Shown in pieces: positions 22,214-38,067 of a stretch of DNA of 38,357 nucleotides; the first letter of the stretch is position 1; each line of letters starts with the position of its first letter. Origin of the DNA: Spirochaetales bacterium (lineage in GTDB: Bacteria; Spirochaetota; Spirochaetia; UBA9216); the NCBI GenBank assembly GCA_016839055.1, contig JAEKNX010000026.1:1-38357 (forward strand). The letters are read 5' to 3'. Below the pieces are notes generated by a model. The model made no database searches and was not told the DNA's origin. It was given only the letters and a program-made list of their open reading frames with translations. Position numbers and translations under genes: made by a program.

Positions 22214-23317
22214 ATGAGTTCATTGGATAGATTAACTATTAAAGGTTTTAAATCTATTAAAGAGTTAACAGATTTAAAACTGAATAATCTCAATATACTA
22301 GTCGGCGGAAACGGTGCAGGAAAGACGAATCTTGTCAGCTTTTTCAGAATGCTTAGAGCGATGTTCGATGGCAATCTTGATGATTTTGTAAGGGATTCCG
22401 GAGGAATTGGTGATCTGCTATACAACGGTAGAAAAGCTACTTCTGAGATGAATTTTGAAGCATATTTTGGAGTAAGAGGGTACCGTTTCAAATTAAAGCC
22501 GACAGTAAATGATCAATGCGCTCTTATTAATGAGGCTCGGTACTATGATCGAGGAAGTAATGGTTGGTGGGAACTTGGAAATAGCAAAAATAACAAATCA
22601 TTACTAGTTAAAGAAGCAACTGGTAATGAAAAAGATAGTGGTTTAAGCAAACCCGTCTATGAAGCAATATCATCTTGGCAGATATACCATTTCCATGACA
22701 GCAGTGATAGCGCTGCCATGCGGCATTCTGAGATAGTTCAGGATAGCGGGGCGCTGCGGACTAATGCTTCAAATATTGCTCCATATTTATATAAACTAAA
22801 AAAACATTTCAAATCAGAATATGAAGAAATCCTGGATGCAGTGAGAATGGTTATGCCTTTCTTCGATGACTTTCTACTGGAAGTTGATGATTTTGGTCCA
22901 AAGAAAAGTGTGAATCTTTCATGGACACAAAAGGGGTCGGATTACCCGATGCAGCCCTACCATTTCTCTGACGGATCAATACGGTTTATATGTCTTGCAA
23001 CGGCTCTTTTGCAGCCCAACCCCCCTTCAACGATCATTATTGATGAGCCTGAACTTGGATTGCATCCTGCAGCAATTTCAGTCTTGGCAGAGCTTATACA
23101 GGATGCCGCTAAAAGAACACAGGTGATTATTGCAACGCAGTCTCCGTCATTAATTGATAATTTTACTGTAGAGGATATCATCGTAGTTAATAGGGAAGAT
23201 GGTGCTTCAACTTTTCAGCGATTAGATAGGAATAAGCTTGATAAATGGCTTGAAGATTATTCAGTAGGCGAACTCTGGACAAAGAATGTTATCTCCGGAG
23301 GACCTGTTTATGAGTGA
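22214..23317 (+). CDS. ABC-type AAA ATPase (AAA_21, OLD/RecF-like)
   Basis: 367 residues. RLTIKGFKSIKELTDLKLNN leads to the Walker A GGNGAGKT (31-38). The signature-like FSDGSIRFICLATALLQP lies near 250, Walker B TIIIDEPELGLHP near 275, and the His-switch region VIIATQSPSLIDNF near 305. Such ATPases pair with TOPRIM or other nucleases in anti-phage systems (OLD, Gabija, PARIS and AbiL types). GAGGGA precedes the ATG. The downstream DUF4276 gene overlaps by 8 bp, so the pair should be co-translated. Confidence 0.88.
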   Translation: MSSLDRLTIKGFKSIKELTDLKLNNLNILVGGNGAGKTNLVSFFRMLRAMFDGNLDDFVRDSGGIGDLLYNGRKATSEMNFEAYFGVRGYRFKLKPTVNDQCALINEARYYDRGSNGWWELGNSKNNKSLLVKEATGNEKDSGLSKPVYEAISSWQIYHFHDSSDSAAMRHSEIVQDSGALRTNASNIAPYLYKLKKHFKSEYEEILDAVRMVMPFFDDFLLEVDDFGPKKSVNLSWTQKGSDYPMQPYHFSDGSIRFICLATALLQPNPPSTIIIDEPELGLHPAAISVLAELIQDAAKRTQVIIATQSPSLIDNFTVEDIIVVNREDGASTFQRLDRNKLDKWLEDYSVGELWTKNVISGGPVYE

Positions 23318-23984
23318 TTATGTTAACATATTTGCTTTGGTTGAAGGACAAACGGAAGAAATCTTCATCAAAAAAGTCTTACAACCTTATTTTATCAATA
23401 GGCAGATTTACATAACACCGATAAGACTCTCAAAACCTGGAGAAAAGGGTGGCGATGTTAAATTCTCGCGTGCAATAAACGATATTAGAAGACATTTAAA
23501 GCAGCGCTCTGATACCTATGTTACTCTCTTGATAGATTATTATGGTTTAAAAGAATGGCCAGGATTGGAAAATGCGAGAGGAAAAGCTGAACCGTCAGAA
23601 ATAGCAGCGGAAATTAACAATGCCACTCGGATAAAGGTTAAAGAAGAGTTGCCTGATGTCGATTCAGAACGAAGGTTTCTTCCTAATATTGCAGTACACG
23701 AATTTGAAACCTATCTTTTTAGTGATTCCGGAATTCTTTCAACCGTCCTTGGTGTTGAAAAGAGTTCTGTTGATGAAATACTAGCTACATTTAGAGATCC
23801 CGAAAAAATCAATAATTCGGTTGAAACTGCACCGTCAAAGAGAATTGAAAAGATGAATAACAGGTTCAAAAAGACTGTCACAGGAATAAAAATAGCTGAG
23901 TCAATTGGTGTTCAAACTATGCGTGAAAAGTGTTCAGTATTCAATAATTGGATAACCGAGCTGGAATCACTAATAGAAGCGTGA
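23310..23984 (+). CDS. DUF4276 protein, probably TOPRIM-like nuclease partner
   Basis: 224 residues from the ATG at 23310, which has GGAGG 8 nt upstream; an ATG at 23286 lacks a site. The N-terminal VNIFALVEGQTEEIFIKKVL and the later TLLIDYYGL follow the glutamate and D-x-D-like pattern of TOPRIM folds. The C-terminal half (LPNIAVHEFETYLFSDSGIL and following) is typical of DUF4276. With the AAA partner it resembles an OLD nuclease split over two genes. The activity is not proved, and the second acidic motif is only partly conserved. Confidence 0.8.
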   Translation: MSDYVNIFALVEGQTEEIFIKKVLQPYFINRQIYITPIRLSKPGEKGGDVKFSRAINDIRRHLKQRSDTYVTLLIDYYGLKEWPGLENARGKAEPSEIAAEINNATRIKVKEELPDVDSERRFLPNIAVHEFETYLFSDSGILSTVLGVEKSSVDEILATFRDPEKINNSVETAPSKRIEKMNNRFKKTVTGIKIAESIGVQTMREKCSVFNNWITELESLIEA

Positions 23985-27740: not shown

Positions 27741-29321
27741 ATGGATAAATTTGAAAAAGCTCTAACTACATATGTTAAAGCATCAATTCCTGTTTTATCA
27801 GTTGCAACATATGAATGGCAAAGGCTGCATGGGTTTTGTGTCGGAGCAGCAATGGAACATGATCTTGTTCTATATAAATGGAGTGTAGTAAGTGGGCTCG
27901 ATAAATGGGGAAAAGGGGAAAGCACCTTTATTTGTGAAGATAATGAAAAAAAAGATCCTATTGATATTCTTTCATGGTTTGAAAATGCTGAACAGAGTCA
28001 TTGCATACTTCTTTTAGAAGATTTTCATCCATTTATGACCTCCGAGAACTATCAAATTGTTCGGTTTATACGGGAAATTACACGTATTAATAGCAATCAG
28101 CAAAAGATACTGATTATCCAAACTCCCTATATTGTGAATTTACGTGAATTGGAAAAAGAAGTTCCTATTCTCGAGTTAGAACTCCCAAAAGAGAATATTC
28201 TGAGAACTATTTTGAATAATGTCCTTGATGAGTTGGCGTACGACGATAAACCCAATGATGATAATGAAATTAAAGATATCGTCTCTGCTAGTCTCGGTAT
28301 GAGTAGTGTTGAAGCAGAATGGACATACAAAAAAATCATTGCAGAAAGAGAAAGACTCACCATCTCTGAAATCACTCTCATCGTAAATGAGAAGGAACAG
28401 ATCATTAAAAAAGAGGGGATATTGGAATATTTTCACCCCGATAGTGATTTTAATCAAGTTGGCGGGATGGAGAGTTTAAAAAAATGGCTGAATAAGAGAG
28501 GTAAGGCTTTTTCTAATGATGCCAAGGATTTTGGTCTTACATCACCAAAGGGTGTAATGCTGTTAGGTGTTCCAGGGTGTGGTAAGAGTCTAATTGCAAA
28601 AACAATTGCCAATGAATGGAACCTTCCTCTTCTTAAATTTGATCTGGGGAAAGTTTTTGGTGGTATTGTGGGTGAGAGCGAATCCAATATCCGTAAGGCA
28701 CTATCTCTGGCTGAAACTATAGCACCTTCGATTCTTTGGATCGATGAAATAGAAAAAGGTTTAAGCGGCATCAACGGTGGTGGAGACAGCGGAACCAGCG
28801 CCCGTGTTTTCGGCAATTTACTTACATGGATGCAGGAGAAAAAAAGTGAAGTATTTGTTATTGCCACGGCAAACAATATAGAGCAGTTACCTCCTGAGCT
28901 CTTACGTAAAGGTCGTTTTGATGAAATATTTTTTGTAGATCTTCCATCAAAAGAGGAAAGAAAGGATATCTTTAAAATCCATATAGAACGGAAAAAAAGA
29001 GATGTTCGTCTATTTGATATAGATAACTTAGCGGCAGAATCGATCGGGTTCTCTGGCGCTGAGATTGAAGAAGCAGTCAACGAAGGTTTATTTATTGCAT
29101 ATGCTCAATCTCAGGATTTGAGCACTGAGAATATTTTTGAAGCTTTAAAATCCACTTACCCTTTATCAAAGACAATGAAGCATACAATCGAAGATCTTCG
29201 TAAATGGGCAAAAGTTAGAGCAAGATTTGCATCCAGTCAGGAAACAGATGAACTGCCGGAAATCCAAGATGCAGAGAAGGTTCCTCAGTTAAAACAGGAA
29301 AAACACAATCCATTTATATAA
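27741..29321 (+). CDS. Ycf46-like AAA+ ATPase
   Basis: 526 residues. The first ~230 form a degenerate P-loop-like domain (VLSVATYEWQRLHGF, ILLLEDFHPFMTSENYQIVR) as in Ycf46 proteins. The C-terminal AAA+ module is complete: VGGMESLKKWLNKRGKAF, Walker A GVPGCGKS (276-283), Walker B ILWIDEIEKG (D335, E336), sensor ATANN (375-379) and LLRKGRFDEIFFVDLP with arginine fingers R389/R392. Ycf46 is encoded in some plastids and cyanobacteria and has no settled function. It probably remodels a protein or RNP in this operon. The ATG has AAAGGA upstream; the helicase gene follows after 9 bp. Confidence 0.88.
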   Translation: MDKFEKALTTYVKASIPVLSVATYEWQRLHGFCVGAAMEHDLVLYKWSVVSGLDKWGKGESTFICEDNEKKDPIDILSWFENAEQSHCILLLEDFHPFMTSENYQIVRFIREITRINSNQQKILIIQTPYIVNLRELEKEVPILELELPKENILRTILNNVLDELAYDDKPNDDNEIKDIVSASLGMSSVEAEWTYKKIIAERERLTISEITLIVNEKEQIIKKEGILEYFHPDSDFNQVGGMESLKKWLNKRGKAFSNDAKDFGLTSPKGVMLLGVPGCGKSLIAKTIANEWNLPLLKFDLGKVFGGIVGESESNIRKALSLAETIAPSILWIDEIEKGLSGINGGGDSGTSARVFGNLLTWMQEKKSEVFVIATANNIEQLPPELLRKGRFDEIFFVDLPSKEERKDIFKIHIERKKRDVRLFDIDNLAAESIGFSGAEIEEAVNEGLFIAYAQSQDLSTENIFEALKSTYPLSKTMKHTIEDLRKWAKVRARFASSQETDELPEIQDAEKVPQLKQEKHNPFI

Positions 29322-29330
29322 GGTGAAAAA

Positions 29331-32300
29331 TTGTCAAACGATTATTGGAATAACAAAAACATGTTGAAATTGGGAGATCACCTGTATTACAGTGCGATTG
29401 CTAAGGATAATCCGGGAAAAGTCCGGGCGTTGGTTAATACCACGAGAGAATCGCTTTCGCCTTATTATTCTTTTTTGGATGAAGCTATCAAAGCTGAGAA
29501 TAAACGGGGTAGCTTTGAAATCAATTGGGAAGAAGTTCGTTCTGAAGTGGTTCTCAGAGTTAATCCCAGATTTCAAAAAATAAAACTTGTAAAACCGCAA
29601 CCTCAAATATTGATTGATATAACGGGGATTGATATTGAAGAGGGGAAAAATCGTCTTATTTATGATATGCAGGATGAAATGTTTTCTTTCCATAAAGATG
29701 ACGTTGATATAAATAATACGAACTCTGAATTGATCTATACCCCCGAGCTTATGCCTGAAATGCATGAAAAACTTGAATTAAACAAAAAAGAAGTCTCATA
29801 CAAAATAGTAAATGTGACTCTTAACAATCAGTCTAAATTAGAAGATGAAAAAGGCAAGATCATTGATATTCACGATTTAGAGGAAATTACTGATGGCTGG
29901 AATATTACTGTTGAAGCTTCAACCAGGATTGAACATCTATCTTTAAACGGATTAAAACTGAAGGCTCTTGTATATGATATTGAATCGTTTGAGGTGCTCT
30001 ATGATGCTGATAAAAAGATGAACTTTGCAAAGATAGGCTCAGAACTTCATGTTGACCAGGAGCCCATATCAAAATTTCTTATATCAGAAAAAAAAGTGGA
30101 ATACACATGGTATAAAATCAAAAACAAAAAAAAAGAATACGCTATTCAGCTGATAGATGATGACAGACTCGATACAGAAAAACTCATTAGTGAACATTTT
30201 TTTGATGATGGTGTAAGAGCTATATATCAGGGTAAGGATAAACGCAACCAAATTGATATAAAACATAAAAATGCTGATGAGAAAATATTGATCCTTAAAT
30301 CAAATTCAAGGAATCCTATTGAACTAACAAAGAATGAACCCATCAAAATTGCTGTGAACATAACGACATTACGCAGACAGAAAGATGCTGTCAAATATTT
30401 GAATGACACACCGGTTAAGAATCAGAAGAATCTGATTAAGCTCTTTGAGAAGAAGCATTCTTCATTATGGAGCAGGGGCAGTACTAAAGAAATTCGTGAT
30501 TGGTATGTGTTGAAGGATGAATCCTACGATGGAACTTTATCGCAACGTAGATTTGTAATAAAGGCTCTATCCACCGATGATTTTGCATTTCTTGAGGGAC
30601 CTCCCGGGAGCGGTAAAACCACAGCAATAATTGAACTCATACTGCAACTAGTGAAAACCGGGAAGAAAATTTTGCTTTCTGCTTCAACACATGTTGCTAT
30701 TGATAATGTTTTAGAAAGAATAAAGTCTTATGACACAGATGATCTCGTTGAACCTTTGCGAATCGGAGACAGTAGCAGAATTGATGAAGCCGTTGTTTGT
30801 TATCAGATAGATGAAAAAATAGAGCGCTATAGAAAAAAAGGCGTTAGTGAAGATCTCGCCAGAAAAATTGTCCTTGACGGGGCTAATCTTGTATGTGGTA
30901 CTACGATGGGTATTCAGCAGCATCCCTATATAAAGGAAAGAGGCCATAATTCTGACCTGCCAATAAACCCTATATATGATTATATGATTATTGACGAATC
31001 TAGTAAAACCACGTTTCAGGAGTTTCTAGTACCTGCTCTGCAGGCTAAGAAATGGGTTCTTGTAGGAGATATTAAACAGCTTTCTCCTTTTATTGAACAG
31101 GAACATATAATCCATAATTTTAATTTTCTTGTTGATGATTACACGCAAAGAGCAATAAGAATTGCTTTTGAAGCTCTGAACAACAATGCCAATCCTTATG
31201 TTATTGAAGTTGATTTACCTGTTATCGATTATATTACCAAATACTTAGATTATTGGGATGAGGTGTCAGATAATCCTTATAGAGGAAAAATTGTTAATAT
31301 AATTATTCAACCTTTAAATGATGATATATATCTGGCGAATAATCTTTTTAATTTACTTGGCAGCGATTTAATCCTCATGCAAACCGGTATCTGGGAGAAA
31401 ATTAAACAATATATACCCAAGACACATATTGTTATTTTAAAGAAACCGGATAAATTCGAGCCATTCTATTATCAACAGCTCTATTTGAATCAACAAAAAC
31501 GTTTACCAAAGTATTCAAAGATTAATAAGAATACGATAAAGGATAATAACCCTGTTGCCGCCGGAGATCTTTTTAGCGAAATGTTAAAAGAGAGATCATG
31601 GGCTGAAGAGATCTCATGGAGAATGATCAGAGTCTATGAGAGACGAATGTTGAAAAATCCAAATTCTTATTACGAGAGAACATTTGATCTATTAAAACCG
31701 ATTGGCAAAGATAATGTTGTAGACCGAATCTACAATATGACGTTGCCTTCTATTTTGGAGTCTCTGCAAACTGGGAACGGTGAAAAGCATAGGAATGAGA
31801 CCACTATAACAGATGGATTTGAAAAAAATGAGCTGAGACCCAGGCATGAAATGTTAGATTATCAGCATCGTATGCATTCGGAAATTTCAGCTTTTTCCAG
31901 AGAAGAGTTTTATACAACAGAAGAGAGGGTTGCTCTCAAAGATGGCAAAAATACAGACAGAATCTGGGATTTTGATCATTATAATCATCGGGCAATATGG
32001 ATAGATGTTCCTAAAAAAGATAAGAACCAGGATAATATACATCAAGCAGAAGTCGACCGTATTATTAAAGAGCTAAATGTTTTTATTCAATACGCTATAG
32101 CAAATCCTCATCCTGAGGGTAGAGAGTGGTCTGTAGCGATTATTACCTTTTACCGACCACAGGAGACATTGCTTAGAATAGCATTAAGGAAATATTGTAA
32201 TCTCCCAAACAAAATGTCTCGTTTTAATAAAGAAGGAATCCAAATCTTAAATTATACAGTCGACAAGTTCCAAGGAATGGAGGCCGATATTGTTTTTCTC

Positions 32301-32474
32301 AGTATGGTTCGGGGGAAAACTATAGGATTTCTGGATAATATTAACAGACTCAATGTGGCCCTGACCCGGGCCCGATTTCAACGGGTTATCCTGGGAGACA
32401 TTAATTTTTTCAGGCATCAAAGGAACTCTGACGAATTAAAAAGATTGGCAGAGAAAAGTGAGGTTGTAAAATGA
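29331..32474 (+). CDS. Upf1/COG1112-type SF1 helicase with large insertion
   Basis: 1047 residues from a TTG start at 29331, preceded by AAGGTG. Residues 1-400 are a unique, partly beta-rich N-domain. Helicase motifs are I EGPPGSGKTT (422-431), II MIIDESSK (D555, E556), III VGDIKQLSPF (from 578), IV LDYQHRMHSE (H846), V VDKFQGMEADIV (from 977) and VI NVALTRAR (from 1008). Motifs III and IV are about 260 residues apart, far more than in typical Upf1-like enzymes; the insert is helical and unrecognised. It should unwind RNA or DNA 5' to 3'. Its TGA overlaps the next ATG (ATGA). Confidence 0.9.
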   Translation: MSNDYWNNKNMLKLGDHLYYSAIAKDNPGKVRALVNTTRESLSPYYSFLDEAIKAENKRGSFEINWEEVRSEVVLRVNPRFQKIKLVKPQPQILIDITGIDIEEGKNRLIYDMQDEMFSFHKDDVDINNTNSELIYTPELMPEMHEKLELNKKEVSYKIVNVTLNNQSKLEDEKGKIIDIHDLEEITDGWNITVEASTRIEHLSLNGLKLKALVYDIESFEVLYDADKKMNFAKIGSELHVDQEPISKFLISEKKVEYTWYKIKNKKKEYAIQLIDDDRLDTEKLISEHFFDDGVRAIYQGKDKRNQIDIKHKNADEKILILKSNSRNPIELTKNEPIKIAVNITTLRRQKDAVKYLNDTPVKNQKNLIKLFEKKHSSLWSRGSTKEIRDWYVLKDESYDGTLSQRRFVIKALSTDDFAFLEGPPGSGKTTAIIELILQLVKTGKKILLSASTHVAIDNVLERIKSYDTDDLVEPLRIGDSSRIDEAVVCYQIDEKIERYRKKGVSEDLARKIVLDGANLVCGTTMGIQQHPYIKERGHNSDLPINPIYDYMIIDESSKTTFQEFLVPALQAKKWVLVGDIKQLSPFIEQEHIIHNFNFLVDDYTQRAIRIAFEALNNNANPYVIEVDLPVIDYITKYLDYWDEVSDNPYRGKIVNIIIQPLNDDIYLANNLFNLLGSDLILMQTGIWEKIKQYIPKTHIVILKKPDKFEPFYYQQLYLNQQKRLPKYSKINKNTIKDNNPVAAGDLFSEMLKERSWAEEISWRMIRVYERRMLKNPNSYYERTFDLLKPIGKDNVVDRIYNMTLPSILESLQTGNGEKHRNETTITDGFEKNELRPRHEMLDYQHRMHSEISAFSREEFYTTEERVALKDGKNTDRIWDFDHYNHRAIWIDVPKKDKNQDNIHQAEVDRIIKELNVFIQYAIANPHPEGREWSVAIITFYRPQETLLRIALRKYCNLPNKMSRFNKEGIQILNYTVDKFQGMEADIVFLSMVRGKTIGFLDNINRLNVALTRARFQRVILGDINFFRHQRNSDELKRLAEKSEVVK

Positions 32475-33961
32475 GAATAACTCTAAAAAAGAAGATACAG
32501 TTAAAATCTATCGAAATCCTTGCTGAGGTTGATTTTAATCATGAAGAATCACCTTACATCGAATTGTTAGAGCAATATACAAATCAACAAGATATGAAAC
32601 AAAAATTGGCAGAAAGCGGTGTCGAGAGTGCCGCTATAAATAATATTTTAAAAAATCTTACAGCGTTAGGAATTATTGAAAATGGATCAATAAAAAACAT
32701 TCAGAAAGGGTTTCCGGAAAGAGAATATGGCAAATACGAAGTTTTATACTATGAAAATGATACTAATTTACCTTTCAAGTATCAGATTCACAGTATAAAA
32801 CGAACAGGTGTCGTTTCCGGAAATCGGGCAGATCGGGTAGCAAAGATACAGTCGGAATTATTAAAATCGTTACTTGAAGAATCCAGAGATCTAAGTAGTG
32901 GGAAAAACTTTAGAATTCTTAAGATTATAAACGAACAAGGAATACATGATATTAGATGTTCCTGCACTGAGAGCCTTGCTATGGTTTTTGAAAATAATGA
33001 TTGGACATATTTCTTTAGTGATATCAAGGACCGGTTTAGTATGCCGCCAATTGAATTGAATTATTCATTTAGAGGCCGCTGGAACAGTGAAGAGATAGCT
33101 CTTGAATTAGACTACGTTGATGTTTGCAATGATGACAACGCAGTTAGAAAGTTCTTATTTACCTTCGAAGATGATTTAGAGATACCTGAGTACGGGAATC
33201 TTCAGGGGGGTTACGACGATATCCCTATAATCCCGAATGAGAGTAGTTATCGGAATTGGTTCTTGCATCTTTTGAAAGAGGAAGTTCAGTCATGTAACAG
33301 GTATTTTACTTACGATGAAATCGAACAGTTGTGGTGCAATTTATATCACAAGACTCCTCAAATACATAAGCGCTTTGAATTACCCTTTGACTTTAGTAGT
33401 ATTTCTAAGGAATATTCAGTTGACTCTGAACTCTATTGGCTGTTAATGACCGGAAAAGACTTAAATCCTTTTGTAAACACCAAGAGTAATGGATATGGTC
33501 GAAATGAAACAATAGAGCAAGATACTGATGTTGAACTGAAATATTTATTCGATAGAAAATTGGATTTTTCTAATATAAATTATCTTCTTATCATTGACCG
33601 ATATGTTAATACGCTGCGGCATTTTCAGTCTGTGGAAGCAATGTTATCTCCTTATAACGGAAGAATAGAAACAACGATTGTCTCGCAGGAATATTATAAA
33701 ACGACGGCACATGAACAGAATCTGATTAAAGAAATATGCGAGGTAAATAATATAAAAAGAATTATCAGAGAAAAGACTGCAATTCCCCATGACAGGTATT
33801 GGATTCTCGACAAGAAAATATTTTATAATTTCTCTAAGAGTGTTGATTTTATTATGATAGATAAAGAAAAAATTGATGTACAACACACTCAGATTTTCTA
33901 TATTCCTGAGGATAGAGTCGAGAAGCGGGTGATCGAATTAGCGGGGGCAATCAATGGGTAA
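32471..33961 (+). CDS. Unknown protein with wHTH-like start and PLD-like C-domain
   Basis: 496 residues. Residues ~27-75 look like a winged helix (YIELLEQYTNQQDMKQKLAE, NNILKNLTALGIIENGSIK). The middle is unassigned, with a Cys pair in IRCSCTES. The C-terminal ~130 residues resemble a PLD-like domain: NYLLIIDRYVNTLRHFQSVE, GRIETTIVSQ and IPHDRYWILDKK, where H440, R442 and D447 give the HxR...D pattern of one PLD subgroup that would act as a nuclease or a bare fold. It overlaps both neighbours (4 and 8 bp), so stoichiometric synthesis is likely. Confidence 0.7.
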   Translation: MRITLKKKIQLKSIEILAEVDFNHEESPYIELLEQYTNQQDMKQKLAESGVESAAINNILKNLTALGIIENGSIKNIQKGFPEREYGKYEVLYYENDTNLPFKYQIHSIKRTGVVSGNRADRVAKIQSELLKSLLEESRDLSSGKNFRILKIINEQGIHDIRCSCTESLAMVFENNDWTYFFSDIKDRFSMPPIELNYSFRGRWNSEEIALELDYVDVCNDDNAVRKFLFTFEDDLEIPEYGNLQGGYDDIPIIPNESSYRNWFLHLLKEEVQSCNRYFTYDEIEQLWCNLYHKTPQIHKRFELPFDFSSISKEYSVDSELYWLLMTGKDLNPFVNTKSNGYGRNETIEQDTDVELKYLFDRKLDFSNINYLLIIDRYVNTLRHFQSVEAMLSPYNGRIETTIVSQEYYKTTAHEQNLIKEICEVNNIKRIIREKTAIPHDRYWILDKKIFYNFSKSVDFIMIDKEKIDVQHTQIFYIPEDRVEKRVIELAGAING

Positions 33962-35660
33962 GATAATTAGGAAAAATCTCAAAGACAGTATTGATCAAAA
34001 TAATGAGATTCTAAAATATTTCATAGAAGAGAAAAAGGAATCAACAAAACAGAATTATTCGGACATTATTAATAAATTTGATATAGCAGAAAATATGATC
34101 TGTATAGCTACCACAGGTTTGCTCCACGCGGATATTATAGAAAGTTTGTATAATATTATTACCAATGGAGTACGCGTTTATATAATTTTAAAATCATTCC
34201 AGGCAGCTAAAGATGTATTAGTAAAATTCGATAAGAAAAAACCTGCACTATTAAGAGAAGTGCCTGAACTTGAAAATGATTTCATCATTGTAGATTCTGC
34301 TGCTACTCTTTATTTAAATTGCTTAGGTGATAAGAAAAATATCGGTATTGAATTCGATAAAGACTTTTCAAATGATCTATATTATTGGTTCAATTACTAT
34401 TTCTGGAATAAGGCTAAGGCTGAAAAGATCCTTGATAAAATAGAAAAACCTATGGAGTCACCCTATCCTCCTTTTGAGAACGAAAAAGAGAATATCAACA
34501 TAGGCATTGCTAGCAGATTGGAAGAATGTGAGGCTGTCATTGTGCCTTCTGATGAGAAATATAGAGAAATAAATGAGCAAGTGAGCAACTATTTTTACTT
34601 CAGTAAAGATCTATCTTCTTCTCTTTATTTCATCGGTGGTAAAACTGTAATCGGTGCTTTTGAGATCAACAGAAATTTCTTTCAGAATATTGGGCAAACA
34701 TGGCTATTAAAGGAAAATCTATTAAGTAAAATTAATATCAACGACGATATAGTACCCTTTGAAGTAAAATGGGATAAGGTTATTAATATTCAGGAGCAAA
34801 GTACAATACTTCTGGAGAATGTCAGGTCCTCCTCAATAGAAGGAATGGATCAGACTAAACCTAATACTATTCCTCAAAAGCCCTATGTAAAAAAACTTCA
34901 CTTTGAATGGATTGTCTTGCCACCGGTAAAACCTGTAAATGCTAACAAAGCTTCACTCTATCAGGACTATTCCACAATTCAAAAAAAGTTTACAGAAGAC
35001 CTTGTGAGGTTGAAGAGGGTTGTAATAGAGATCCAACTGAACAATAGTCCGGTGATCCAATTTTTCTCAGGTGCGAAAAAGAAGGCTGAAGAATATTCTA
35101 AAACAATTGAAGAATATGAAAACTTATTACTCGAGAAAATGGACTTCAATAGACTGAAAGATCTTCTTGATACTAAGTTTAAACCCTTTTATGAAGAAAT
35201 ATATAAATTTTCAGTCAGCTTGAAGAAGGGCATCGACAGGAAGAAAAAAGAACAAGTCTGGGAAGGACTGAAAAAAGAAAAAATCAAATCTCTATCGGAT
35301 AAAAATCAAGAACTTGCACGGCTTAAGTATGAAGTAAAAAAGCAGGACCCAAAAATAATTAGCAAGTTGAAGAGAGAAATCGAACTGTTAGAAAATTATA
35401 TAACAAAGAACTATTCTGAGTTTAAATATAAAGAGTCTTCCAATGAATTGGAAAATCTCAAAAAAACTGACAATAAAAAAATTAGCTTTCAGAATTACAC
35501 CCTACCTAAATACCCAATTCCTGAAGTCGGTGTTCTTTTTGAAGACAAGACATCCTATTATCTGGAAATTGAAGATTACGATGTTCTGGACCAGGCAAAT
35601 AGATTAGTAAAAGAACGTTATATAAATAAACCTGCACAAGTTGTCGTTAAGGAGAGCTAA
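33954..35660 (+). CDS. Unknown protein with degenerate PLD-like N-domain and coiled coil
   Basis: 568 residues. Residues ~40-165 have a PLD-like order (AENMICIATTGLLHADIIES, NGVRVYIILKS, ENDFIIVDSAATLYLN, KNIGIEFDKDFSNDLYYWFN) but lack the HKD histidine and lysine, so it is probably inactive. The middle has a second alpha/beta region. About 340-510 is charged, helical and partly coiled coil (KKKEQVWEGLKKEKIKSLSD, KLKREIELLENYITKN). It could be a scaffold pairing with the HDR-containing PLD-like protein upstream, as PLD domains work in pairs. Confidence 0.68.
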   Translation: MGKIIRKNLKDSIDQNNEILKYFIEEKKESTKQNYSDIINKFDIAENMICIATTGLLHADIIESLYNIITNGVRVYIILKSFQAAKDVLVKFDKKKPALLREVPELENDFIIVDSAATLYLNCLGDKKNIGIEFDKDFSNDLYYWFNYYFWNKAKAEKILDKIEKPMESPYPPFENEKENINIGIASRLEECEAVIVPSDEKYREINEQVSNYFYFSKDLSSSLYFIGGKTVIGAFEINRNFFQNIGQTWLLKENLLSKININDDIVPFEVKWDKVINIQEQSTILLENVRSSSIEGMDQTKPNTIPQKPYVKKLHFEWIVLPPVKPVNANKASLYQDYSTIQKKFTEDLVRLKRVVIEIQLNNSPVIQFFSGAKKKAEEYSKTIEEYENLLLEKMDFNRLKDLLDTKFKPFYEEIYKFSVSLKKGIDRKKKEQVWEGLKKEKIKSLSDKNQELARLKYEVKKQDPKIISKLKREIELLENYITKNYSEFKYKESSNELENLKKTDNKKISFQNYTLPKYPIPEVGVLFEDKTSYYLEIEDYDVLDQANRLVKERYINKPAQVVVKES

Positions 35661-35663
35661 GAA

Positions 35664-36137
35664 ATGAGTCGAGTTATTCATATTAAAGGAAGTGTTATCA
35701 TCGAAAATATTGAGATAGCCCGGAAGGCTCTAAGCCAGTCATTAGTTCAAGGAATAACGATTGAAGAAAAGAGATTTGTTTTTAATAATTATGATAATAA
35801 TGACGGATATAATAAAAAAACTGAGATTGGGCAAGTGGAGACAATCTACCAATCGTTGTTGAATGAGTATTATCAACTAATTGCTGAAGAAAAAAGGCTT
35901 TTAGAAGAAAAGATTGTTGAAGAAAAACTTTTTCAGATGGAACAGGAGTTGAAGAGACTTGACGAATTAAATCGATTGGAAGAAGAAAAAATTCGTATTG
36001 AAAGTGAAAAAAGGGTCATCCGTGAGCAAAAGAAAGAGATGATTATTAAAAATGCTAAGAAGCAAGGGTATATTGTTAAGAAAGAGATTACAAAAAATAA
36101 TACTATCAAACTCGTCCTGCAGAGAAGAGTTTATTAA
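35664..36137 (+). CDS. Coiled-coil protein with DUF1257/Ycf35-like ends
   Basis: 157 residues. The N-terminus MSRVIHIKGSVIIENIEIAR and the C-terminus IKNAKKQGYIVKKEITKNNT plus IKLVLQRR resemble the first strand/helix and the last strands of DUF1257 (Ycf35) proteins as I recall them. Between them lies a charged helix (about 65-125; LLEEKIVEEKLFQMEQELKR) likely to be a coiled coil. DUF1257, DUF2997 and Ycf46-like genes are known neighbours in cyanobacteria, which supports the call, but it needs a profile comparison. GGAGAG precedes the ATG, which lies 3 bp after the previous stop. Confidence 0.55.
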   Translation: MSRVIHIKGSVIIENIEIARKALSQSLVQGITIEEKRFVFNNYDNNDGYNKKTEIGQVETIYQSLLNEYYQLIAEEKRLLEEKIVEEKLFQMEQELKRLDELNRLEEEKIRIESEKRVIREQKKEMIIKNAKKQGYIVKKEITKNNTIKLVLQRRVY

Positions 36138-36703
36138 TGCTGAACATTTTCCATATTGAAACAAATAATTTTGTAAATGGCATTGGTAATCGCTTTGTAA
36201 TATGGCTCCAGGGATGTAATTTAGGTTGTCCAGAGTGTTGGAACAAGCAAACTTGGAGTATGGCGGCGAATACATTGACTAGTGTCGATTCTTTACTTAA
36301 TAGAATTGAAAACAAACCTGGTATTAAGGGTGTAACCTTTACAGGGGGGGAGCCCTTTTTGCAGGCTAAAGAACTTTCTATGTTAGCGAGGCTCATCAAG
36401 GAAAAAACAGAATTAAGTATTCATATATTTACAGGATATGAGCTTAATGAGTTGGCTGACTGTTATCAAAAGGAATTGCTTAAATATACCGATACTCTTG
36501 TGACTGGAAGGTTTGATACAAGTATAAGGAACAATAATCAGAAAACACATTATCTAAACGCGCATAGTCCTGCTTGGGGTTTTAACAATAGCGATGTTGA
36601 AATTGATATAGATGAGAACAACAATGTAATTATGACCGGCTATCCCACAGATGAACTGGTTAGCGGATTGGAAGGAGTCCTTGATGACAGAATATATGAT
36701 TGA
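36137..36703 (+). CDS. NrdG-like small radical-SAM 4Fe-4S protein
   Basis: 188 residues. IGNRFVIWLQGCNLGCPECW carries the radical-SAM CxxxCxxC (C27, C31, C34). VTFTGGEPFLQAKEL is the SAM-binding GGE motif, and LVTGRFD plus the terminal VEIDIDENNNVIMTGYP are usual in short activase-like members. NrdG activates anaerobic ribonucleotide reductase, but no nrdD is here, so it may act on another protein of the operon, for example the DUF2997 or AAA+ protein. It starts on the last base of the preceding stop (TAATG) and overlaps the next gene by 20 bp. Confidence 0.85.
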   Translation: MLNIFHIETNNFVNGIGNRFVIWLQGCNLGCPECWNKQTWSMAANTLTSVDSLLNRIENKPGIKGVTFTGGEPFLQAKELSMLARLIKEKTELSIHIFTGYELNELADCYQKELLKYTDTLVTGRFDTSIRNNNQKTHYLNAHSPAWGFNNSDVEIDIDENNNVIMTGYPTDELVSGLEGVLDDRIYD

Positions 36704-36884
36704 AATAGATATTGATGAGAATGGTGATGTTAAGGCAGAGACGAAAGGTATGTGCGGTGAAATTTGTGTGAATGAATTAGATGAAATTTTAAATGGAATT
36801 GATGGAGAACGAAGCAATAAAAACAAACCGGAGTTTTACCAGAAAATAAAGATAAAAAACGTTGTTAACCAAAAAGCGAAATGA
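36684..36884 (+). CDS. DUF2997 protein
   Basis: 66 residues from the ATG at 36684, with AAGGAG 7 nt upstream; an ATG at 36651 lacks a site. MIEIDIDENGDVKAETKGMC followed by GEICVNELDEILNGIDGE is the DUF2997 pattern (strand, strand, GxxGxxC, helix). The basic tail (KPEFYQKIKIKN) is normal. It is a small acidic protein of unknown role. Overlap with the radical-SAM gene suggests that the two proteins interact or that this is its substrate (inference). Confidence 0.8.
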   Translation: MTEYMIEIDIDENGDVKAETKGMCGEICVNELDEILNGIDGERSNKNKPEFYQKIKIKNVVNQKAK

Positions 36885-36945: not shown

Positions 36946-38067
36946 ATGAGAAATAAAGATAAGTTCCGCGGTTGTCTAATCGGCGGGGCAGCAGGTGATG
37001 CTCTTGGTTACGCTGTCGAGTTTATGAGCCTGGAGCAGATAAGACAAAGGTACGGCAGCCGCGGGATAACAGACTTTGTGTTAACAGATGGCGCGGCACT
37101 AATTTCAGATGACACCCAGATGACCCTGTTTACAGCCAACGGCCTATTAATACGGACAACCCGGGGAATGGGAAGAGGTATAGCTGCCAATCCTCAGGAT
37201 TATTGCTGGTACTGCTATAAGGCCTGGCTTAAGACGCAGGAAAGCGATTTCCATCGATGGAAAAGCAGTGTTAAAGATGTTTCCAAAGAGTATCCATGGC
37301 TTATAAGAGTGCCTGAACTTCATAGCGCCAGAGCTCCGGGCAATACTGTGTTAAGGTCATTACGGGCTGATGTCGCGGGGACAAGAGATAACCCGCTTAA
37401 TAGTAGTAAGGGCTGCGGGGGCTTAATGCGTGTTGCGCCGGTAGGTCTTTATTTTGAAGAAAGGGATATTTATATCAATCGGATTTGTATTCATGGGGCG
37501 AATATTGCGGCTTTAACGCACGGTCATCCTCTTGGTTATATTCCTGCGGCTGCCTTTGTATATCTGATAAATCGGATTACTTACTGTGAACAGACTGAGC
37601 CTGAATTAAAGGAGATTGTCACCGGGTGCATAGCTGAGATGAATACGCTTTTCCAAGGTACTCCTCATATCGATGAGTTTATTTCTATCATGGAAAAGGC
37701 TGTTGAGTTATCTGAATCAGATATGGATGACGAGAGTGCAATTTCTTTGCTTGGAGAGGGCTGGGTTGCCGAAGAGACTCTTGCTATCGCGATCTACTGC
37801 GTGCTTAGATATCGTGATAATTTTGAGAAGGCACTTGTTGCGTCGGTCAATCACAGCGGAGATAGTGATTCCACGGGTTCTGTCGCCGGGAACCTGATGG
37901 GGGCTTTACATGGTTATGATAGAATTCCTGAAAAGTTTAAATGCAATCTGGAGTTAAAGGATATCATACTCGAAATTGCAGATGATCTGTGTTCTGACTG
38001 CACAATTGATGAATACTCTATTAATACTGAGGAAGACGATAGGTGGTATTGGAAGTATAGCTGCTAA
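36946..38067 (+). CDS. ADP-ribosylglycohydrolase (DraG/ARH family)
   Basis: 373 residues. DKFRGCLIGGAAGDALGYAV, LISDDTQMTLFTANGLL (S54-D55-D56-T57) and HSGDSDSTGSVAGNLMGALH (D306, D308) supply the di-magnesium centre of ARH enzymes. They remove ADP-ribose from arginine or other residues, or degrade small ADP-ribosyl compounds. GGGGA precedes the ATG. The gene follows the DUF2997 gene after 61 bp on the same strand, so it may share the operon or stand alone. No ADP-ribosyltransferase is visible in the window. It is GC-richer than the operon before it. Confidence 0.92.
   Translation: MRNKDKFRGCLIGGAAGDALGYAVEFMSLEQIRQRYGSRGITDFVLTDGAALISDDTQMTLFTANGLLIRTTRGMGRGIAANPQDYCWYCYKAWLKTQESDFHRWKSSVKDVSKEYPWLIRVPELHSARAPGNTVLRSLRADVAGTRDNPLNSSKGCGGLMRVAPVGLYFEERDIYINRICIHGANIAALTHGHPLGYIPAAAFVYLINRITYCEQTEPELKEIVTGCIAEMNTLFQGTPHIDEFISIMEKAVELSESDMDDESAISLLGEGWVAEETLAIAIYCVLRYRDNFEKALVASVNHSGDSDSTGSVAGNLMGALHGYDRIPEKFKCNLELKDIILEIADDLCSDCTIDEYSINTEEDDRWYWKYSC

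Follow-up and report, generated by a model that had tools for sequence, protein, structure and literature searches.

A gene module of Ycf46-like AAA+, DUF1257/Ycf35, DUF2997 and radical-SAM proteins recurs outside photosynthesis and lies within a candidate antiphage operon of a spirochaete

Introduction

What do proteins that are known mainly from chloroplasts and cyanobacteria do in a non-photosynthetic bacterium, encoded in an operon that recurs across bacteria and archaea? The plastid genes ycf35 and ycf46 have long been known without a settled function, and we know of no function assigned to DUF2997. The locus that raises this question lies on a contig of a Spirochaetales bacterium (GenBank assembly GCA_016839055.1, contig JAEKNX010000026.1), which was analysed in its entirety (38,357 nucleotides, hereafter the window) and belongs to a 5.0 Mb genome in 43 contigs that is about 97% complete. 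An initial annotation, made from these letters alone, had likened three of the encoded proteins to Ycf35, Ycf46 and DUF2997, had proposed that the trio is not tied to photosynthesis, and had suggested a radical-SAM protein as its fourth partner. As for the contig itself, its opening stretch of about 77 bases (1-77) is met again at or near the termini of several further contigs from the same genome, and the window contains internal repeats as long as about 390 bases.

Results

A seven-gene operon

According to the list of open reading frames, seven forward-strand genes from 27741 to 36884 overlap or almost touch, and we read them as a single operon. It begins with a Ycf46-like classical AAA+ ATPase of 526 residues (27741-29321; Pfam AAA, 6.2e-35) that ends in NPFI, followed by a UPF1/DNA2-like superfamily 1 helicase of 1047 residues (29331-32474) with matches to Pfam AAA_11/AAA_12, PADLOC MkoA (4.1e-81) and an IGHMBP2-type NCBIfam model (7.8e-48). 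Then come p4 (496 residues, 32471-33961), with a divergent N-terminal part and a putative MIT_C/PLD-like C-terminal domain, and p5 (568 residues, 33954-35660), in which a PLD/TrmB-like N-terminal domain is followed by a long coiled coil. The last three genes occupy 35664-36884, coordinates that leave the AAA+ gene outside: p6 (157 residues, 35664-36137), an NrdG-like radical-SAM protein of 188 residues (36137-36703; Pfam Fer4_12, 1.9e-30) with a CxxxCxxC motif and a beta-hairpin-like C-terminal tail, and a 66-residue DUF2997 protein (36684-36884), whose start we took to be the ATG at 36684, the longest start given by the ORF tool being 36651. PADLOC returned no match for p5, p6 or p8, and the operon as a whole fits no known system. 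About 60 bases downstream of the DUF2997 gene lies a gene for an ADP-ribosylglycohydrolase (36946-38067), a relative of which is also present at locus L066 (8.8e-41).

p6 is related to DUF1257/Ycf35

In single-sequence searches the window's p6 had no match to Pfam PF06868 (DUF1257) at E<=1, and PF06868 had no match anywhere in the whole genome, so that the resemblance looks absent at this level; it emerges by profile comparison. The initial annotation had suggested such a comparison for 35664-36137, and when a profile of 16 p6-type proteins was aligned by hhalign with one of 44 DUF1257 proteins (30 of them cyanobacterial), both made without the likeliest bridging sequences (L063, L070 and L071), the match to DUF1257 ran from first to last over 110 columns, near full length, with a probability of 97.1% (E 5.7e-11). 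The best of 50 column shuffles reached 0.8% and the reversed profile 0.2%, while shallower alignments gave a probability of 88.9 across 31 columns; the one rival of note to DUF1257 was a DndE match below its cut-off. The outcome that would have spoken against the initial annotation, an absent DUF1257 match or a better one to an unrelated family, did not arise. L063, L070 and L071 are intermediate between the p6 type and DUF1257, and the ortholog from L070 passes the Pfam cut-off for PF06868 (27.1 bits, cut-off 22.2), the one from L059 giving no match at E<=0.1. A first p6 profile retrieved a canonical DUF1257 protein (3.2e-5) and a DUF1257 profile retrieved L070 (1e-6); with the 44-protein DUF1257 profile, E was no better than 0.0089 for the window's p6 and exceeded 1 for some p6-type members.

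Unlike canonical DUF1257, p6 has a coiled-coil insertion ahead of the last helix. Its AF2 model (pLDDT 94.3) has a single 85-residue helix and found no convincing relative in the PDB (best Pcc1, E 0.43). The gene two places after p6 in the window encodes DUF2997, which is a close neighbour in p6-type loci too. Judged by these sequence comparisons, p6 is a DUF1257/Ycf35-type protein with a coiled-coil insertion.

The AAA+ protein is related to Ycf46

The proposed kinship of the AAA+ protein with Ycf46 also held up: the closest cyanobacterial proteins are 36-45% identical to it, most over nearly the entire length (residues about 2-505), and 62 of 98 cyanobacterial genomes contain a match at E<=1e-30; we take these proteins to be Ycf46. 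In a phylogenetic tree the window's AAA+ protein stands apart from the AAA paralogs of its own genome and groups with those of all ten other loci of seven-gene form in one clade of 19 rows (SH-aLRT 95), whose hosts come from scattered phyla at odds with the species tree, a pattern as in mobile systems.

A C-terminal NPF[IV] motif marks AAA proteins of the window's branch (window 29300-29321, L035, L042, L054-L056, L058-L060, L063, L065-L067, L070 and L071), and one neighbour at L035 (11649-12245) carries it as well. A related tail, as a rule QRMEF or QRLEF, closes 21 of the 30 AAA proteins from the cyanobacterial AAA loci L135-L164; a search of 30 cyanobacterial genomes with the tail-motif pattern found mostly the AAA protein itself and scattered others, with no recurrent client. 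At L206 (15113-19883) and L207 (67-7095; G507:C26), R-x-[LI]-[DE]-L-like tails are borne by the AAA protein (GGRKIDLL) and by seven further proteins, ankyrin proteins among them, in a cassette with two apparent DUF1257-DUF2997 fusions and a radical-SAM gene, nearly all flanking genes being without the tail. The tail was common to the AAA protein and its same-strand neighbours in 14 of 268 cases where the AAA protein has one and in 0 of 373 where it has none, with 1 of 161 on the opposite strand. Sharing was not enriched at IMG/VR loci (5 of 480 vs 5 of 741 neighbours), which rules out a shared tail as a general rule.

DUF2997 and the radical-SAM tail

The assignment of the 66-residue protein to DUF2997 was likewise borne out, at the Pfam PF11211 cut-off (E 4.2e-5): the cut-off is 24.1 bits, and the protein scores 23.8 alone but 24.3, just above it, when the whole genome is searched and its frame neighbours are included. 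It keeps the GxxC motif, present in 68 of 68 DUF2997 family matches, just as CxxxCxxC is present in 44 of 44 radical-SAM family matches. The initial annotation had further noticed that the C-terminus of the radical-SAM protein (VEIDIDEN) looks like the start of DUF2997 (IEIDIDENG). This likeness is real and family-wide by hhalign: the C-tails of 39 radical-SAM sequences matched DUF2997 with a probability of 82.3 and a score of 30.2, compared with at most 13.5 for 40 column shuffles and 13.9 for the reversed profile. As far as the sequences go, it may reflect either shared ancestry or convergence on one kind of hairpin.

A four-family module outside photosynthesis

Ycf46-like AAA+, DUF1257/Ycf35, DUF2997 and NrdG-like radical-SAM proteins form a gene module that recurs outside photosynthesis. 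Scanning a species-representative collection with a fragment of the AAA protein yielded at least 80 loci from many phyla as well as archaea. Among the 80 matches listed, DUF2997 and a radical-SAM gene were both present in 28, DUF2997 only in 19, the radical-SAM gene only in 3 and neither in 30, so that a radical-SAM gene was nearby in 28 of 47 loci with DUF2997 vs 3 of 33 without it (Fisher 2.8e-6, for loci that are not independent and some of whose contigs end nearby). Through ORF overlap the gene table misses p6 at two loci (L063, L071) and DUF2997 at L070; the raw matches contain them. As a fourth partner, the radical-SAM protein was upheld for the branch with p6-type DUF1257, where it lies nearby in 13 of 13 tabulated loci among the matches listed, as well as for the 28 DUF2997 loci just mentioned. 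It did not extend to canonical DUF1257, which had a radical-SAM gene nearby in only 3 of 25 of the matches listed, or to cyanobacteria (0 of 60 loci within about 1.5 kb), and is thus not essential to every version of the module.

That the trio is not tied to photosynthesis gains support from its spread, the set or most of it being found in Spirochaetota, Myxococcota, Actinomycetota, Bacillota, archaea and IMG/VR contigs, and from the window's own genome, which contains no gene of the reaction-centre family PF00124 in a search for which the Synechococcus control was positive. All four families occur together at 12 of 80 IMG/VR loci, two of the 80 being of the helicase type; on one 173-kb IMG/VR contig (L219, 4297-13618) the full set lies beside ThiF-family, ParB-like and RecA-like genes. 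Annotated plasmids carry versions as well, in Paenarthrobacter with the order AAA, hypothetical, DUF2997, HhH and a 4Fe-4S single-cluster protein, and in Bacillus licheniformis with a 4Fe-4S protein, AAA, DUF1257 and DUF2997. Four loci (L084, L114, L118 and L119) encode apparent DUF1257-DUF2997 fusions of about 204-210 residues beside radical-SAM and AAA genes; their C-terminus is DUF2997 by Pfam (below cut-off for L118) and their beginning is DUF1257-like, with MSHC near the start and a match to the DUF1257 profile (0.002) for L118 alone. Of 20 genomes searched, a single one contained canonical DUF1257 (G393, at locus L087, which has no p6). In the Myxococcota loci L073, L081 and L102, FHA-domain proteins are encoded upstream of AAA near AAA-DUF1257-DUF2997.

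The seven-gene form and its neighbourhood

Among the matches listed, the seven-gene form (AAA, helicase, a gene in the p4 slot, p5, DUF2997, p6 and radical-SAM) is present in the window and at L042, L057, L058 (with helicase and p5 split), L060, L061, L063, L065, L066, L070 and L071, in hosts that include Thermodesulfovibrio, Bacteroidales, Pseudomonas, Methanococcoides, Paraliomyxa and Planctomycetota. Genes in the p4 slot share just 14-21% identity with the window's p4, and their C-terminus varies by locus or is missing. In the Thermodesulfovibrio ortholog (L057) it is a Zc3h12a-type NYN RNase (PF11977, 4.7e-17). In the window it is MIT_C/PLD-like, with MITD1 as the best Foldseek match (1.6e-4), an assignment that we treat as a lead because the underlying AF2 model is poor (pLDDT 65.7) and the alignments are shallow. 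Among 392 genomes of the same phylum p4 was found only in its own, and neither searches of plasmids with p4 and the small proteins nor a scan of viral contigs with p4 gave a match. The Pfam matches of p5 are weak (TrmB 1.2e-4, PLDc_2 0.041), as are its PLD-fold matches to FAM83B and NucT, and its PLD-like domain has no evident HKD catalytic motif.

Recognised defence genes adjoin 5 of the 10 seven-gene loci whose flanks were scanned, namely the window, L061 (a Piwi/pAgo protein), L065 (BrxC and PglX), L066 (PDC-S37/Hhe) and L070 (SAVED-CHAT). In the window, an AAA_21 and DUF4276 pair at 22214-23984, 3.7 kb upstream of the operon, matches HEC-01A/B in PADLOC (2.2e-141 and 1.3e-71). The flanks of L042, L058, L060 and L063 gave no defence match and those of L071 a generic kinase only. 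The scan covered 18 flanking ORFs, some picked by size, with window 36946-38067 and L054 left out of the count and L057 without a flank. At 10 canonical DUF1257 loci used as controls, one had a defence gene (BrxL, 56.7 bits, L075), other matches being a kinase at L111 and weak LmuB matches at L076 and L081; the comparison (5 of 10 vs 1 of 10) involves few loci, sampled unevenly at 18 flanking ORFs vs 10.

Relation to known systems

In cyanobacteria, DUF1257 lies beside DUF2997 at 30 of 30 loci and AAA beside a second DUF1257 at 25 of 30. In Synechocystis, DUF2997, ycf35 and the ferredoxin gene fed7 are described as a cluster (PMC4284462). The ferredoxin motif CxxCxxCxxxC[PV] was absent from the short flanks (about 1.5 kb) of 60 cyanobacterial loci, so that the link to fed7 rests on that description. 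The cyanobacterial and plastid cluster, taken with Ycf46, comprises the same protein families as the window and, through fed7, includes an Fe-S protein too; unlike the window it has no radical-SAM gene nearby (0 of 60 cyanobacterial loci) and is described without a helicase, p4 or p5. The window's p6 also differs in its coiled-coil insertion, and the window's AAA belongs to another clade.

The helicase invites a comparison with Mokosh, which consists of the UPF1-like helicase MkoA and the PLD protein MkoB, or of a fused MkoC. As in Mokosh, an MkoA-related helicase is encoded in an operon with PLD-like proteins. The window operon was rejected as Mokosh, however, as p4 and p5 have no MkoB match at E<=1 in PADLOC, nor any other Mko match, and AAA+, DUF1257, DUF2997 and radical-SAM genes are among those added. 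In the sgiAT operon of SGI1, an S8 protease toxin is paired with an AAA+ antitoxin from the SpoVK/Ycf46/Vps4 group (PMC10954446); it is a conflict-type operon with an AAA+ protein from the same broad group, a likeness by description rather than sequence, and its description there mentions no DUF1257, DUF2997, radical-SAM or helicase component. In the contractile-injection locus of Treponema succinifaciens pTRESU01, a 4Fe-4S (radical-SAM) gene lies beside a Ycf46-like AAA gene among VgrG and baseplate genes, whereas the window's module is joined to a helicase; DUF2997 and canonical DUF1257 occur on a contig of G157, a genome of the same class.

Discussion

We favour, with moderate confidence, the reading of the seven-gene operon as a candidate antiphage system built on the AAA+/DUF1257/DUF2997/radical-SAM module. 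DUF1257 and DUF2997, which appear fused in some loci, would together make a small complex that serves the AAA+ ring as adaptor, and the radical-SAM protein would arm this complex by modification or one-electron chemistry. Its C-terminal hairpin, which resembles DUF2997, may be where it docks and could occupy the same site as DUF2997; with its GxxC motif, DUF2997 is one candidate target. The form found in the window adds to this module the UPF1-like helicase, the PLD-like coiled-coil protein p5 and p4, whose swappable C-terminus looks like an effector. The most likely role of all seven genes would be defence against phage or plasmid nucleic acid, in which the helicase would recognise or track the target, the AAA+ module would load or remodel the complex, and p4 would act on the nucleic acid. 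The defence role and the target of the radical-SAM protein are the steps we infer with least firmness. The component families, and defence based on a helicase, have been described before; the combination appears in none of the papers found, and the open-access literature yielded no paper describing the four-family set.

This proposal has to be weighed against a role for the seven genes in the host's own upkeep, as a chromosomal DNA or RNA repair or stress-response complex, in which the four-family set would remodel proteins in connection with stress, a role that has been suggested for Ycf46 of cyanobacteria. UPF1/DNA2-like helicases have host functions too, and canonical DUF1257 loci lie mostly away from defence genes. 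In Synechocystis, moreover, the ycf46 operon is reported to respond to a lack of iron, sulfur or nitrogen as well as to salt, high light and oxidative stress, and carbonic anhydrase activity to fall when ycf46 is lost (PMC7496141). A housekeeping role of this kind sits poorly with the sporadic presence of the system (p4 in a single one of the same-phylum genomes, its own), with an AAA clade that gathers scattered phyla, and with defence genes beside half of the scanned loci, and we consider it unlikely.

Two narrower doubts concern individual members of the module. The radical-SAM gene might simply encode the NrdG activase of an anaerobic ribonucleotide reductase and lie beside the trio by chance, for NrdG is its top NCBIfam match; at 107.2 bits, however, this match stays under the equivalog cut-off of 126.1, and neither NrdD nor another glycyl-radical enzyme was found among the operon genes scanned. 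The gene also recurs next to DUF2997 in many phyla and its conserved C-tail lies beyond the NrdG-matched residues (4-135), which makes such an accident very improbable. That p6 is a mere coiled coil with ends like those of DUF1257 by accident, or else a relative of DndE, could draw on the missing direct Pfam match to DUF1257 and on a weak DndE match (9.4e-4). DndE fails as a candidate, since the 19.9 bits over residues 3-71 fall short of a cut-off of 25 and no DndE match appeared at E<=0.1 in either ortholog scanned (L059 and L070), and the 110-column alignment to DUF1257, which shuffled controls do not approach, the intermediates, among them one above the Pfam cut-off, and the shared slot in the operon leave this the least credible of the alternatives.

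The candidate antiphage operon can be placed in a wider frame, which we put forward tentatively. Ycf46, Ycf35/DUF1257 and DUF2997 would possibly supply the AAA+ motor and the adaptors for an ancient and widespread machine switched on by a radical-SAM or other Fe-S protein, of which plastids keep a relic, which phage-tail-like particles and large phages use, and which the window's lineage made antiphage with a helicase and a swappable effector; the short C-terminal tail common to AAA and its neighbours in one branch would mark clients or docking partners. The settings of this one module range from phage-related loci and plasmids to injection systems and defence islands, and a large branch of it has a radical-SAM partner. 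For ycf35, ycf46 and DUF2997 it offers a testable frame, that of an AAA+ complex with an Fe-S switch, and because cultured bacteria and named plasmids carry the module, its function may be tested without photosynthesis interfering.
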